From positions 59,210,001 through 59,274,000 of the forward strand of contig OX485804.1 in assembly GCA_950295325.1 (NCBI GenBank): DNA of 64,000 nucleotides, given 5' to 3'. Below the pieces are notes generated by a model, which saw nothing but the letters and a program-made list of their open reading frames with translations, was not told the origin of the DNA and did not search any database. The translations under genes were made by a program, and so were the position numbers. Below, one piece after another: positions 29,696-59,635 of this stretch; position 1 is the first letter of the stretch; every line of letters starts with the position of its first letter. The stretch comes from Polytrichum commune (Eukaryota > Streptophyta > Polytrichopsida > Polytrichales > Polytrichaceae).

Positions 29696-29800
29696 GGCAA
29701 CCCAAGACATGTCATTTGCATTACCATAGCAGAGTAACTTATCTTAAATTTCACATTTGTATGCAAATGTACAAATGTGAAATAGAATGTCATTTCAGTG

Positions 29801-30170
29801 TCCGGGGAGATTTTGGGGCATAGTCAGTCAAGATCCTAGTGATTCCAAGTTACATGTGGACGTCTTCTAGTATTTCTTCATTAAATGATGGGTAATTTAC
29901 TTGAATTCTTGAACTTCAACCACCTTTTTTTGTTTTGTTTTGATTTGATTTGGAACATAGTAGGCGCTTGACCACCTGGCTAGTTTCCCATCAAGTAGCT
30001 CTAGAGACGATTTCACGGCTGGGAATCGAATTGCCAACCACTCCGTTCAGTTCGGGTACCTTTCCACTATCACTCGGTAGTTTAGGGTCATCTCGGACCA
30101 ACAACCACTTATTTCTCAAACTCAATTGGTTTATCTGTAACTAACAGCCAGTTGTCCCCATTCATTGTGT
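29801..30170 (-). repeat. R200 repeat in reverse, split by a SINE
   Basis: Starts AGTGTCCGGGGAGATTTTGG and follows the R200 unit in reverse to CTTGAACTTCAACCAC, where the SINE is inserted, then continues CTTATTTCTCAAACTCAATT to the end. Intact R200 copies (33239-33455) join these two parts without the SINE. Confidence 0.7.
29924..30101 (-). mobile_element. tRNA-derived SINE, copy 1
   Basis: On the minus strand it carries a pol III B-box-like motif AATTCGATTCC (30022-30032) and ends in an A/CAAAA-rich tail, seen as the T-rich stretch at 29925-29950. CAACCAC is duplicated at both ends (29917-29923, 30102-30108). It shares about 150 bp with the SINE at 50828-50984. A 64-codon ORF here is not meaningful. 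Confidence 0.7.
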
Positions 30171-30214
30171 GATTTGGAGTGGAGACTCCACACTCAGAGC
30201 AAGATCACCACGTC

Positions 30215-31085
30215 AATGAACGGGGAGAACTAGCCATTGCTTAAAGATGAACCGGTTGAATTTGAGAGATAACCAATTCAAATTGAAGACTTCAAGAAAA
30301 TCATTGGTTGATCTAGAGGAATTTATAAGCTCTTCCTCTATTTTTTATTTTTTATTTTTTTTAAATGTAAAATTTTAAAACCCAAAAGATGTCAACATGT
30401 AACCAGTTCATATTGGAAACACGAGGATCTCGACCAATTATGCCCAAAAATCTCCCTGGACCAATGAATGGAGAGAACCAACCGCTAGTCACAAATGATT
30501 CAATTGAGTTTGAGTGATAACCGTTGAAGTTTAAGACTCCAAAAAATTTACCGATCATTTTAGGGGGGATCTATAGAAGAATACACCCCAAATTAATAAA
30601 GAAAAAACCGAAAGATCACAACATGTAACCAGTTGGACTTGAAAGCACTAGGATCTTGACCTAAGATCGCGGACAACCAACAATTAGTTACAGATGAACC
30701 GGTTGAGTTTGAGAAATAACCGGTTGAAGTTCAAGACTCCAGGAAAATGACCGATCATTTTAAGGGAAATCTATAGAAGAATACACCCCAAATTAATAAA
30801 GAAAAAACCGAAAGATCACAACATGTAACCGGGTGGACTTGGAAGCACTAGGATCTTGACCTAAGATCCCAGACAACCAACAATTAGTTACAGATAAACC
30901 GGTTGAGTTTAAGAAATAACCGGTTGAAGTTCAAGACTCCAGGAAAATGACCTATCATTTTAAGGGAAACCTATAGAAGAATACACCCCAAAGTGATAAA
31001 GAAAACACGGAAAGATCACAACATGTAACCAGGTGGACTTGAAAGCACTAGGATCTCCACCGATTATGCCCCCAAAATCTCCCCC
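30215..31085 (+). repeat. R200 tandem array (about four units, last three in exact 200-bp phase)
   Basis: ATACACCCCAAATTAATAAA occurs at 30581 and 30781, and a close variant at 30981, exactly 200 bp apart. The units at 30581-30780 and 30781-30980 differ at about nine positions. The phrases ACCGGTTGAAGTTCAAGACT, CATGTAACC and CACTAGGATCT recur in each. Dispersed relatives: 23985, 29801, 33239, 52109, 59137. Non-coding. Confidence 0.85.
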
Positions 31086-31540
31086 GACACCAAGGTCACC
31101 AAGGTCGTGACCTTTTTGCAGAGTTTGGGCAAGCAATTAATCAGTGTGGGGAGGTACTTGGGGCCAAGTACCTGAGCCACTGACCCCCTCGCCTGATAAG
31201 TTAGCTGTGTGTCACATGCTAGTTGAGGAGCCTCCTAAGCTTAAAAGGCCCCGTTTACACTACGACTACATAGGCACATTAATTAGTGTGTCCTTTTGAA
31301 GAGTGTGTGTACCATTGTGTTGACTTGTTGGTTTCATTTCATTGCGATGAATCTTTTTATGGAGTCCAAGGGAAGCTCAAGTATTGGAGTTCCATCTTTC
31401 GGCAATTGGTAGGACATGCTTTGATTGTTAATCATGCGTCGATTGATGTCTTCATTATGAGTATTTTGGAAGTGGATTGGGCGGGGTCGCGGAAGGTGGT
31501 GGGGCGAAAATCAAAGCTCTCCTCCGTCCTAACTATCTTA
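31086..31540. other. Intergenic DNA between R200 array and H1 copy C
   Basis: A 126-codon ORF (31286-31666) begins here but runs into the MITE. Its first part is not recognised. A TTTACACTACGACTAC phrase near 31254 resembles MITE ends. Confidence 0.4.
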
Positions 31541-32045
31541 GGGCCACTTCACACACGAGCCAAGAGCCGTGACCATGAAATTGTGAGAGCCCGAAAGAAA
31601 GTGTCCAAAGGCCGTCCCAACACGCCTCCAAAATCATGTAGTGTGGTCACGGACCCTCAAGTGTAGCGTGAAGCCATGTGTAAGCGGGCCTTCAACCAAA
31701 TGCTATTTCAATGAATTTCTATTCATGCGTGGTCCTCACACATGATAGAATAGAATAAATCCACGGGTGTGGGATTTCGGAGTGCCATGGTCTCCCAGTT
31801 TTGTGTTAGGCCTACCTCCGAGAGGCGATTTTTGAAAATAGTACATGTGACCATGAAACATGATCCATTCGATGCCATGTAGGAATCCATGTAGACTTTT
31901 ACATCCATCTCGCATCCACATACTCACTTCGTTGGTCCCTCAAGCGTAGTGTGAAGCGAACTTGGACCGGCCCCACCTTTTCCACCAATGAGAATGCTTG
32001 AAGTGAAATGGTCACGGGCTCTCAGTCTCGTGTGTGAAGTGGCCC
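31541..32045 (+). mobile_element. H1 MITE, copy C (505 bp, TTA target duplication)
   Basis: Starts GGGCCACTTCACACACGAGC and ends CGTGTGTGAAGTGGCCC, with TTA at 31538-31540 and 32046-32048. TIRs of about 22 bp. It carries the same minus-strand open interval as copies B and D (31723-31908). Confidence 0.85.
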
Positions 32046-33238
32046 TTACGTTGGGATTAGAGAATATTGCCCATGCATGGTTAGTTGGGATGATTGTACC
32101 TTACATAAGAAGGTTTGTGATATGAGCATCACTTAGAGCGATCCATTATGTTTTACATTTGCAATTGGGCTTGTGGCAAGCAAGGGGCGGAGGAACCCGA
32201 CGTAGTTTTTGCACGAACCCTAAACCCTAAACTCGAAGCCCCTAAACCCAAAATCCTCATTCACATCTCAAAGTAATGAGCGTTTCATAAATCTTGATGC
32301 TCTAAGTAATTTGAGTAAGTGTAGAGTGGTCATGCTCAAAGTGATATATTGAAATCGGATTGGTATTAAACGAAAGGGATATCATGATACGCGAAAGCAT
32401 GTTTGGAAGCCATTTGGCCATGGGTCCACACAACAAAAGCTTGAATTGGAAACATTCCCTAAGCAATCTTCATGAGGTGGTGTATGATTTCAACTTAAAG
32501 GTTGTCAAAATTTTACCAAGAATTTGTCATCAATGTTCCACATGGAATCCATCAAGGTGTTATCCAAGTGTTGCCATCCCAATAAAAGGTTCAAGTTCTC
32601 AAATTGAAAGCTTCGATGTAAAATAAGCATCTAGTGAACAAGCATGTGTCGAATGCTCCTTGCCCATGCGAGAGGTCCTTTTCCTTTGAGGCCTTAATAT
32701 AGTCTCTAACCTCTCGATGTTTCTAAGGTAGAATTGCCCCATAATCACCTATCACAATACTATGTGTAAGGCATTCAATAAAATTTTAAATGCTTCATGT
32801 TTGTTCATTCTAGAATGCAAATCTAGGATAGACATAAATCAACGACTCCGATTAGAAGAGTGTCAACCTAGCCACCTTAGTGTAAAGGCGTCCTTAAGAT
32901 ATGCGGTTGTATCATGGACACTTCCAACTCCATATAAATACGAATTATATGGAGTTGTCTAATCCTATAAACTCTTGCAAATCACGCTTATTGCTAGTTC
33001 AAGTTTCTAAATTGAAGTTGACATGCAAAAGCTAAAAGTTGTCAAAATATTGAAGGGCCTCTCTCTCTCTCTCTCTTTGGACAATCACATAGACCCTCTC
33101 ACTCATGTGAGCTATTGAACATACAAGGGTGTCTTTATTTTGAGCACATAAGATAGGTGCACCTACCTTGGTTTGTAACTTATTATGAGCACCTAACATT
33201 AAGGGTATTGTGGACATGAAGCACATGCTAACATGCAG
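32046..33238. other. Intergenic DNA with a small perfect hairpin and a (CT)n run
   Basis: AACTCCATATAA and TTATATGGAGTT form a short perfect inverted repeat at about 32928-32957. A telomere-like AACCCTAAACCCTAAACTC lies near 32217. A CT run is at 33058-33077. No gene recognised. Confidence 0.5.
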
Positions 33239-33455
33239 TGATCAGGGAGATTTTTGGGCATAATCGGTTGAGATTTTAGTGTTTGCAAGTCCAACCAGTT
33301 ACATGTTGACATCCTTTGGTTCTCCTTTATTAAATTGGGTTATATTCTATAAACTCATTTGAATGATCGGTAATTTTCTTGTAGTCTTGAACTTCAATTG
33401 GTTATTTCTCAAACTCAACCGGTTCATCTGTAACTAATTGCCGGTTCTCCCGATT
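33239..33455 (-). repeat. R200 repeat, single copy in reverse
   Basis: Runs from AGTGATCAGGGAGATTTTTG to AACTAATTGCCGGTTCTCCC with all R200 phrases in order. It is the uninterrupted copy that shows the SINE at 29924 to be an insertion. Confidence 0.7.
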
Positions 33456-47128: not shown

Positions 47129-47451
47129 TAGTAGCCTCTAGGAATCCAGCCTACCTTAATGCATCATTCTTGCTTGGAGGGGGTAAAAATCAGTTTACCG
47201 ACGATAAGTTACTTTAGGCTCTGTGGTTTTACTGCCACTTTCTTAAGTTACCCTTTTGTCAGCTTTTGTACTGTGGGAGATATTTGGTAAAATTCCGTTT
47301 GGTTAAACCGAAACTGGACCTGGATTTCCCTTCTTTTGAGTGAGGTCATTTTGTGCACTTTTTTTCGGGAGGTAAAAAATTGGTCATAATTTTTTGAGTC
47401 TTGTGTCAAAAGGTCCGGTGTCCGTTTGGTTTAAGGGGATTCCAATGCCCC

Positions 47452-48455
47452 AAATTATGCCTTCCGTATGCAAAAGCTATAAGGGTTCAAAGTTTATCGA
47501 ATTTCAGATGTTGCACATCACCCCTTAATCCATCCCTGGAAGATGGTTACCTTCTTGGAAAAACATAGGCATGATCCAACGGCTGAGATCAAAGCGTTGT
47601 CTCCATACAAACACCTATTTATGTGGGAGCCAGGGACATGGGTAGACGACCTAAGAACAACATGGGAAAGGTGCAATGTCATTTTATGTAAGGGGGTTTC
47701 TACTCATCGAATTATCTCTTCTGTATGCAAAAGTTACAAGGGTTCAAAGTTTATCAAATTCCAAATGTCGCACATCACCCCTTAATCCATCCTGCCAAAA
47801 CGGTTACCCTCTTGGAAAAACATGGGCATGATCCAACAACTAAGATCAAAGCGTTGTCCCCGTACAAACACATGTTTATGTGGGAGCCATGGACATGGGT
47901 AGACAATCTAAGAACAACATGGGAAAGGTGTTGTGTCATTTTATGTAAGGGGGTTTCAACTCACCGAATTATGTCTTCTGTATGCAAAAGTTATAGGGGT
48001 TCAATGTTTGTTGAATTATGAATGTTGCATGTCACCTCTCATCTTTCTCCAAAAAAGATTGGAAAACACACAATCATAATCCAGCGGCTAAGATCACAAC
48101 TTTGTCCCCATATAGACACATGTTTTTGTGGGAGCCAAGGACATGGGTAGAGGACCCAAAGACAACATGGGAAATGTGTGGTGTGCATTGTACGTGAGAG
48201 GATTCCAACGCACCAAATTTTACCTTCCATATGCAAAAGTTAGAAGGGTTCAAGGTTTATCGAATTTCCACATGACTTATGTCGCAGTTGACACCCCTCA
48301 TCCTTCTTTAAAACAATCTGTTACCCTCTTGAATAAAATACACAATCGTAGTCCAACAGCTCAGATCAAAGCTTGTTCTTGATACATGCACCCATTTTTG
48401 TGGGAGCCAAGGACACGGTAGATGACCCAAAAACAACATGGAAGTCCAATGTTAA
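47452..48455 (+). repeat. Tandem repeat, about 255-bp unit, four copies
   Basis: The phrase TATGCAAAAGYTA-AGGGTTC recurs near 47467, 47724, 47981 and 48230. Each copy then has a CATCACCCCTTAATCCATC-like block, a CATGATCCAAC-CTAAGATCAAAGC block and ATGTGGGAGCCANGGACATG. Copies 1-3 are closest and copy 4 is more diverged. ORFs of 80-98 codons repeat with the unit, but open frames differ between copies, so I do not call a protein. Confidence 0.85.
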
Positions 48456-49255
48456 GGTGGTGGACAATATGAAAAATCAACATGTATTTCCTCTTCTCAA
48501 GTGTTATTTTCCCGGACTTCATTACGTTCATTCATTAATGGTAAAAATCAATATGATTGATTTTTACTTTTAATGTTATGTACTATTTGTTAGAGAATTT
48601 TGTCAAAATTCTTTATTCATTCATTCATTCATACATAGGCTTCATGTAGTTGAAGGATGCCTTGTTCATTGGCACGATTGTGGGGGTTGACATTTGGGGG
48701 GGGGGGTAAAGAAAGCCGTGCTAGAGAGATTATTGAGCATAACATTGAACAATTCGGGTGAATATTATTATCATTCTAGCTTAAAACAAAGAACAATTTT
48801 ACACAAAAGAATGTGTTTGTTCAATTTTTTTTGTCTCCCCCTTCTCATTTCCCCCTTTCTTTCTATTGTTTCACTTTGCATGCTAGACATTTTTTTGAAG
48901 GTGATTTTGTTGAAAGCTCGTTTCAAATTATTGTTGCATACATGCATATCTCTAGGTTGGCATTCATCTAATATATAAGCCCTAAAATAATATGCCACCC
49001 ATAGGTTACTTGTTTTTTACAACTGATTTGAAACCGGAATCAACTTTAAAGACCACCAATTAGTTCAAGTTAATTGAGATGAATTGGCCATAAACCAATA
49101 GGGAGGCAAGTTCTTGTGTTGGATGGATGAGAGGTATGCTTGTATGTGATAATTCCCTTTTATTGTATAGAACGTCCTATCCACTACCCTATTAGTGTCA
49201 CTTACAATTTGGAATTGCACAAGGCTAAAGCTCTAACAAATAGTACATAACATGT
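48456..49255. other. Intergenic DNA; single M5 end
   Basis: A G run at 48698-48706 and the M5 right end TTGGATGGATGAGAGGTATG near 49118. No gene recognised. Confidence 0.45.
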
Positions 49256-49256
49256 A

Positions 49257-49290
49257 CTAAACCCTAAACCCTAGACCCTAAACCCCTAAA
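49257..49290. repeat. Interstitial telomere-like repeats
   Basis: Four to five imperfect copies of the plant telomere unit CCCTAAA (AAACCCTAAACCCTAGACCC and onward). Too short and imperfect for a telomere; it lies directly upstream of the transposase relic. Confidence 0.75.
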
Positions 49291-49344
49291 TTGCATATGC
49301 GACAACAAAACAAGTCCAATCTAAAACATGTAAATTGTTGTATG

Positions 49345-50080
49345 ACATCATTGTGAGGCGTGCTTTGAGAGATGTTGGATTGGGTGCACAAGTGCTGCAA
49401 AGGAAACCATTTTTGAGTCCTAAACATGTTCTTGCACACTTGAAATTTGCTCAAAGGGATGAGAATTGGACCATTAAGATTGAAAACGCATGATTTTTAG
49501 TGACGAGGCAAAGATAAATAGGTTTAACTCAGATGGTAGGTCATGGTGTTGTATTGGAGATGGAGAACACGTTGGACCTCAACATGTCCATCAGATTGTG
49601 AAGCATGGCGGTGGGTCGGTCATGATTTGGGGATGCATGACAACTTTTGGGTTGGGAGCATGATACAAAATTAAAGGTAGGATGGATAGGCATTTGCACA
49701 AATTTATATTAGAAAATTTCTTGTGGTCCACTATACAAAATTACAATTTGGATCCAAGTTGGTTGGTCTTTCAACTAGATAATGATCCCAAACACACGAG
49801 CAAGATCGTGCAAGAATATTTGGCATCAGAACCATTTCAACTCCTTTAATGGCTTGCACAATCTCCATATATTGAATCCCATTGAACACTTCAGGGCACT
49901 TCTCAAACGATGTTTGAACAAACTTACGACACCTCCAAGAGGTATCCAAGAATTGTGGGAGCGTGTGTGTTCAGTGTATTCCAATTTTAGTGAACACAAT
50001 TGCATGACGTTTTATGAGAGCATGCCACAAAGCATTGACGTTGTGTTGAAGAGTAGGGGTTACTGGGCCAATCATTATTG
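49345..50080 (+). pseudogene. Tc1-type (DD34E) transposase, broken
   Basis: The product was a DDE transposase that would cut and paste its own element. Segments in order: the helix-turn-helix end and linker (VRRALRDVGLGAQVLQRKPF, LSPKHVLAHLKFAQRDENWT), a catalytic block ISDE-like FSDEAKINRFNSDGRSW, GGGSVMIWGCMT, the second catalytic Asp in LDNDPKHTSKIVQEYLA, and NPIEHF with the catalytic Glu. Asp-to-Glu spacing is 34, the Tc1 class. The C-terminus reads LWERVCSVYSNFSE to SRGYWANHY and a stop. It is dead: a 1-base loss near 49482, a Trp-to-stop change just after, stops near 49661 and 49847, and a frame change near 49872. The N-terminal end before 49345 and the element's inverted repeats were not found. 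Plant mariner-like elements are normally DD39D, and DD34E Tc1 elements are typical of animals and fungi, so lateral origin is likely. Confidence 0.88.
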
Positions 50081-50812
50081 ATTTTGTAGACAACTTGAAC
50101 AAAACCGAGTATCTGTATATTTTTCCTCATTTGGCTTTGCAACATACTTTCTTATTATTAATGTAGTGTGAAATTTTGCATACGTGTGCACAAATTTGTG
50201 CAGTATCATATCCAAAGTTTTCAAATTTGAAAAAGAGCTTGTGAATTGTTCAAGGTTGTCTATTGAAGATGAGTATGCTCAAATGTACTTAGTTTTGTTT
50301 GTAACTCATAGTTAGTGATACTAAATACCGTAAATAGTAGTATACCGAACAAATGCTAAAGAGGAGTTTTTAACGTAGAAACACCCGGCTCAAGTTAGAA
50401 GATTATGTGAATCAGGCTTAGAGAGGAAATAAATTTTACCAACTAAATTTACAAAGCAGATTTTACCAAGTTGAAGTACTGGGATGCTGGGCAAGTTTCT
50501 TAATTGTGTGGGTAATAAGTCTATTGGAGCTCCAAGTTGCACTAGGATTCTTGCAGTTAAGGTTTCTTAGAGTGCCAAAAGGGAATTTCCAAATGGGTTC
50601 CAAAGAGATATTTAACCATTGAATGAACTGAATGGAGAATTTTAATTTTTTTTAAATAGTTTAAAATTAATAATATATAAAGTTGCTTTCCTGCACCTGG
50701 AAATGATGTGGGTTTGTTGGATAATTGCTTTTTTGGGGTTCATGGCCAAGCAACTGCTAATGTAAACTGCACTAACATTTACATTACAAAATTGCCAACA
50801 ACCTTTAACCAA
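50081..50812. other. Intergenic DNA; M2-like end
   Basis: GATACTAAATACCGTAAATA near 50326 resembles one end of family M2. Any 3' part of the Tc1-type element should lie at the start of this stretch but could not be delimited. Confidence 0.4.
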
Positions 50813-52108: not shown

Positions 52109-52301
52109 TGGGAGACATTTGGGCATAATCAGTCAAAATCCTAGTGTTTCCAAGTCCAACCGGTTACATGTTGTGATCTTTTTGTTTTTCTTCATCAATT
52201 TGGGATATATTCTAGAGATTCCTCCAAAATGATGGGTAATTTTTCTGAAGTCTTAAATGTCAATTGGTTATTTTTTGAACGTCAACCGGTTCATCTATAA
52301 G
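52109..52301 (-). repeat. R200 repeat in reverse, truncated
   Basis: Runs from GGGAGACATTTGGGCATAAT to CAACCGGTTCATCTATAA and stops where the MITE at 52304 begins. The missing end of R200 is not found beyond the MITE. Confidence 0.65.
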
Positions 52302-52303
52302 TA

Positions 52304-59136: not shown

Positions 59137-59338
59137 AATGAACGGGGAGAACTGGCTGCTAGTTATAGATGAACCGGTTGAAGTTCAAGACTCTAAGAAA
59201 ACAACTGGTTGTTTTTCGAAGAATCTATGGAATATACCTCAAAGTCTTCAAGAAAATCCGGAAAATCACAACATGTAACTGGTTGGACTTGGAAACGCTA
59301 GGATTTTGACCGATTGTACCCAATAATCTCCCTGGACA
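59137..59338 (+). repeat. R200 repeat, single copy
   Basis: From CAATGAACGGGGAGAACTGG to ATAATCTCCCTGGACACTGG, with GATGAACCGGTTGAAGTTCA and CACAACATGTAACTGGTTGG in the expected order. The ends GGGGAGAAC and ATCTCCCTGG are weakly inverted, so the unit may itself be a small transposon. Confidence 0.7.
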
Positions 59339-59635
59339 CTGGCTTAAAGTGATGATTTTAGCACCATCTGTACCTTAAATATCGTCATATTTTGAGGCAT
59401 CAGACAAGGATTGTTTCCTGGTGCAAAGATCTCTTCTTCTAAGTGTCAGCCTTAGTTAGGTGGGACAGCGGAGACTGAATTTTTTTTCTCAATCAGAAAA
59501 TCGTCACCCAAGACCTTAAAAAACGTATTATTCTTGTGCATGGTTCGACTGACTAGCCAGCCTTGCTCATGGGCTCATCATTGGGACACCTCTTTGCGCA
59601 CAGAAACTTTTGGCTCCCACTAATAACTTAACTTA

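Follow-up and report, generated by a model that had tools for sequence, protein, structure and literature searches.

The window analysed here, a stretch of 64,000 nucleotides of Polytrichum commune lying in a 70-Mb chromosome-scale contig, almost certainly contains a dead, 5'-truncated copy of a Tc1-like DNA transposon family resident in this moss, whose history would comprise a burst of transposition, silencing by methylation, C-to-T decay and truncation. The living element would have been about 1.58 kb long and inserted at TA, with CAGT-ended terminal inverted repeats (TIRs) no shorter than 23 bp. Judging from the Tc1 family, its DD34E transposase, carrying two helix-turn-helix (HTH) domains, would have excised the element at the TIRs and inserted it at another TA. 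This family, called A in the following, would have multiplied in a burst over all seven chromosomes and would then have been silenced by CG/CHG DNA methylation, its copies being eroded by mutation, largely C-to-T. The copy in the window has lost its first ~570 bp, presumably by a rearrangement whose edge now holds a short telomere-type repeat.

A preliminary description of this DNA had recognised a decayed Tc1-type DD34E transposase in a plant, and this identification is borne out by the relatives found in the genome and by a match to Sleeping Beauty. The limits it proposed (49345-50080) were however too narrow, as the conserved stretch covers 49289-50307. The features of the copy and of its edge, in window coordinates, are the following:

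49257..49290, + strand: interstitial telomere-type repeat, CTAAACC x 4.7, 34 bp (Tandem Repeats Finder), abutting the truncation point
49289..50307, + strand: 5'-truncated Tc1-like (DD34E) element copy of family A, equivalent to positions ~571-1588 of the ~1588-bp element (alignment to 15 full-length copies)
49290..50081, + strand: remnant of the transposase frame, extending from the second HTH and interrupted by two stops and two 1-nt indels
49353..49457, + strand: C-terminal half of HTH_Tnp_Tc3_2, the second helix-turn-helix (Pfam PF01498, E=5.8e-7, profile positions 35-69 of 72)
~49477..49478, + strand: frameshift 1, a 1-nt deletion relative to the other copies (copy alignment)
49502..49504, + strand: codon of the first catalytic Asp (D1), in FSDEAK
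49661..49663, + strand: premature stop TGA in place of the majority codon TGG of the family (copy alignment)
49778..49780, + strand: codon of the second catalytic Asp (D2), in QLDNDPKHTS
49847..49849, + strand: premature stop TAA in place of the majority codon CAA of the family (copy alignment)
~49871, + strand: frameshift 2, a 1-nt insertion relative to the other copies, between D2 and the catalytic Glu (copy alignment)
49884..49886, + strand: codon of the catalytic Glu, in NPIEHF, 34 residues past D2 with the inserted base discounted
50285..50307, + strand: decayed 3' terminal inverted repeat, GTACTTAGTTTTGTTTGTAACTC against GTACTCARTTTTGTTCGTAACTG in the family, with the last base changed

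By its sequence, the plus strand encodes a degenerate Tc1-type transposase, and the strength of the matches is far beyond chance. The catalytic domain of Sleeping Beauty (PDB 5cr4), used as a tblastn query, finds the window piece with E=5e-26, and the protein pieces of the window match transposases of the same genome that are intact or less damaged: they are 79% identical over 126 aa (E=1e-72) to L015, 54-55% identical to one group (L006/L030/L035) and 45-47% identical to a member of another (L031). The DDE_3 profile is weak in the window fragments (0.011, Pfam). The 34-residue Asp-Glu spacing reported in the preliminary description holds once the base inserted at 49871 is discounted, but not on the raw sequence, where D2 and Glu are 106 nt apart, corresponding to the 34 residues between them and the extra base. 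Similarly, both frame changes noted at that stage were recovered, but of the three or more stops only two were, since the third is met solely in the wrong frame; the terminal stop of the remnant lies at 50079-50081.

At the nucleotide level the copy is 85.6% identical over 1014 bp to one full-length element (L010), whose 5' TIR matches the 3' TIR of the window in reverse (86% over 43 bp). The first ~570 bp of the element, with the 5' TIR and the N-terminal HTH, are absent from the window copy. With the 5' TIR lost and a 3' flank that reads AT, the TA target duplication is unreadable on both sides. A nested insertion that would have left the 5' part at another place in the window was also considered and ruled out, as the L010 element matches no 5' part there.

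Relatives of this copy were counted in the host genome, a check already proposed with the preliminary description. Family A has at least 40 copies, with 81-86% identity over about 1 kb, on all seven chromosomes (C1-C7), a lower bound because 40 candidates out of 186 were scored. Fifteen of the copies fetched are full length (~1.58 kb); they begin with CAGTTACGAACAAAAYTGAGTAC and close with its reverse complement, forming CAGT..ACTG TIRs, and most of those displayed have TA on both sides. The TIR pattern has 140 matches in the genome with at most 3 mismatches, which include sister families with similar ends, against 3 for a reversed control. No full-length open frame was found among 20 family A copies fetched, the longest transposase frame being of 188 aa, and of the profiles only HTH_Tnp_Tc3_2 is seen in the family, in one copy (L040) below the cut-off. 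Two pairs of family-type TIRs are closely spaced, 391 bp apart on C3 (G000:C3:27706034-27706424) and 544 bp apart on C2 (C2:65215514-65216057), and these are possibly non-autonomous (MITE-like) derivatives.

Foreign contamination of the assembly, by which the sequence would not belong to the moss at all, is excluded for practical purposes because of the number of copies, their spread over the chromosomes and their varied flanks. The window moreover sits in a chromosome-scale contig and a dispersed host repeat adjoins the element, so that we give this explanation a negligible probability. The same figures correct the view of a laterally transferred, isolated sequence, since what is observed is a family that multiplied and decayed in this genome.

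Other genes of the host were compared with known proteins. A PsaD exon shares 85 of 91 residues (counted from the alignment) with 6l35, which we take to be Physcomitrium PsaD, and scores 188 bits, versus about 160 for seed-plant PsaD. One LEAFY paralogue reaches 219 bits with 4bhk, presumably Physcomitrium LEAFY, versus 171 with Arabidopsis LEAFY. The two LEAFY paralogues located on C1 (L073 and L074) read KMRDYVHCY, Physcomitrium-like, and KMRHYVHCY, seed-plant-like, and this D/H-variable residue affects DNA-binding specificity. An ABA receptor retrieved in a Bet v 1 protein search is bryophyte-like and closest to Marchantia PYL1, and a region of ~95 kb on C5 (G000:C5:1751760-1846160) contains at least 14 genes for light-harvesting chlorophyll-binding proteins, whose family scores are identical. 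From these markers we conclude that the host is a moss. The genome itself measures 408 Mb and is made up of seven large contigs and some small ones, seven being also the chromosome number of the inferred ancestral moss karyotype (PMC13120521).

The age and the manner of decay of family A were evaluated against its majority sequence, which serves only as a proxy for the ancestor. Each copy lies at a K2P distance of 0.08-0.12 from it (~10%), the window copy at 0.094, and the mean pairwise distance is 0.173, so that the divergence is star-like and fits one transposition burst. Changes from C to T, counted on both strands, affect 25% of CG sites, 22% of CHG sites and 7% of CHH sites, T-to-C changes 2.9%, giving an approximately 3-fold enrichment of C-to-T at CG and CHG sites. 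Methylation in CG and CHG is the plant pattern of silenced transposons. From this biased mutation spectrum, together with the plant pattern of silencing, we infer that family A was methylated in CG/CHG over a long residence and decayed inside the plant. Both premature stops of the window copy are of the C-to-T type. It could still be supposed that the window copy is a host gene domesticated from a transposase, as its catalytic motifs are still recognisable; but two stops, two frameshifts, the lost N-terminus and a divergence similar to that of all the other dead copies make this extremely improbable.

The telomere-type repeat at the truncation point suggests how the 5' part may have been lost: capture of telomere repeats during break repair would be a plausible, though unproven, cause. 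The plant-type telomere repeat is also seen at the end of C1, and a second telomere-type cluster occurs in the window at 32218-32251. Several other repeats were observed in the same stretch. A dispersed repeat of ~200 bp (48961-49158) adjoins the transposon copy; at least 49 matches were reported, with 72-82% identity over most of its length, 40 of 1494 candidates being scored. Before it lies a tandem array (47432-48274) with a 257-bp unit, 3.3 copies and 79% matches. Another dispersed repeat, of ~210 bp, is found at 29797-33451, 52110-52303 and 59172-59340; it occurs several times, in either orientation, at 29.8-33.4 kb and is present too in the flank of an element of another group (L036).

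Family A is not the only one of its kind in this moss. The DDE_3 profile gave 149 matches among 150 candidates scored in the genome, and we recognised three related families, B (L006, L030, L035, L047), C (L031, L034, L007) and D (L032, L038, L048), each well supported in the tree, with ~45-56% protein identity to A among the better-preserved copies. A further DD34E group, E (L008, L036, L045), is ~25% identical to A-D. The placement of A-D relative to Sleeping Beauty and to E involves long branches and was excluded from the evidence. Families B and C carry TIRs of the CAGTGACT type, and they show HTH_23-like, HTH_Tnp_Tc3_2 and DDE_3 matches, that is two HTHs before the catalytic domain; intact members of the sister families clear both Pfam gathering cut-offs (HTH_Tnp_Tc3_2 and DDE_3). 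The distance between D2 and Glu is 34 residues in the copies L031, L035, L015 and L045; the DD39D triad of PlantMar is absent, the third residue being Glu with a spacing of 34.

Since some copies of B, C and E keep long open frames, the activity of these groups is probably more recent than that of A. Recent activity is suggested for one member of group E (L045, G000:C1:3572000-3575500), whose CAGT-ended TIRs of 24 bp are perfect and whose open frame extends over 354 aa. A separate, IS630-like group is represented by L001 (G000:C2:13106015-13109437), with an intact DDE_3 frame of 352 aa in which, relative to L005, the first catalytic Asp is replaced by Gly and the expected NPxE by NVTK. Such a frame, open but apparently no longer catalytic, could indicate either recent decay or possible reuse.

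The preliminary description treated DD34E Tc1 elements as an animal and fungal group, a view which is outdated. Liu & Yang (2014) described the DD34E Tc1-like elements PpTc1 (1,584 bp) and PpTc2 (1,709 bp) in Physcomitrium, with CAGT ends and TA sites, and DD34E fragments in nine angiosperms (PMC4054914). This removes the apparent anomaly of finding DD34E in a plant, such an element being expected in a moss, and the interest lies not in the window copy but in where the moss families, taken together, first came from, which is still debated. Vendrell-Mir et al. (2020) found PpTc1 and PpTc2 closest to fungal elements and proposed a transfer from fungi (PMC7466625), a published hypothesis with which the fungal source guessed in the preliminary description coincides.

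Horizontal transfer of the element from a fungus to the moss lineage, followed by decay, would agree with those phylogenies and with the scattered occurrence of these elements among plants (PMC4054914). However, four related families (A-D) in one genome indicate long residence or several entries rather than a single recent entry, and the plant-like CG/CHG signature on the copies implies that it was in the plant that they decayed; we regard this account as rather unlikely. If a transfer happened, it preceded the expansion of family A, and the window copy is a late relic. Old vertical inheritance of A-D, from Tc1-like elements of early mosses or early land plants, would explain the several diverged sister families and a family A that is dead and star-like, and DD34E elements are known in another moss and in angiosperms; yet close relatives are reported absent from Marchantia, Arabidopsis and rice (PMC7466625) and from Selaginella (PMC4054914). 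Vertical descent is a possible origin to which we give somewhat less than even chances. Scans of viral contigs and prokaryote genomes found no relatives there, which speaks neither for nor against a donor. We only tentatively suggest, and with more doubt than belief, that A-D form a bryophyte-specific clade that goes back to at least one ancient fungal transfer into mosses and then diversified in the plant, in a genome with at least five DD34E groups. The DD34E families of this moss are more numerous and older than the pair known from Physcomitrium, and they offer a richer set of elements, which makes the published fungal-transfer hypothesis testable.

Compared with known systems, family A is most similar, by published description, to PpTc1 and PpTc2 of Physcomitrium patens, sharing a moss host, DD34E, CAGT termini, TA sites and a similar size (~1,588 bp here). 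It differs in that the PpTc families are young (~2% divergence) and have intact frames, PpTc1 being transcribed, whereas family A is ~10% diverged and has no full-length open frame in the copies fetched. With Sleeping Beauty, a fish Tc1/DD34E element (PDB 5cr4), the moss families have in common the catalytic domain and the D34E spacing, and a family C protein matches it with E=2.9e-47; A-D are however only ~34-40% identical to it, and its host is a vertebrate. Finally, PlantMar and the other plant mariner-like elements belong to the same IS630-Tc1-mariner superfamily and also use a TA target, but they are DD39D elements, in contrast to the DD34E found here, and form a separate clade (PMC7325037).
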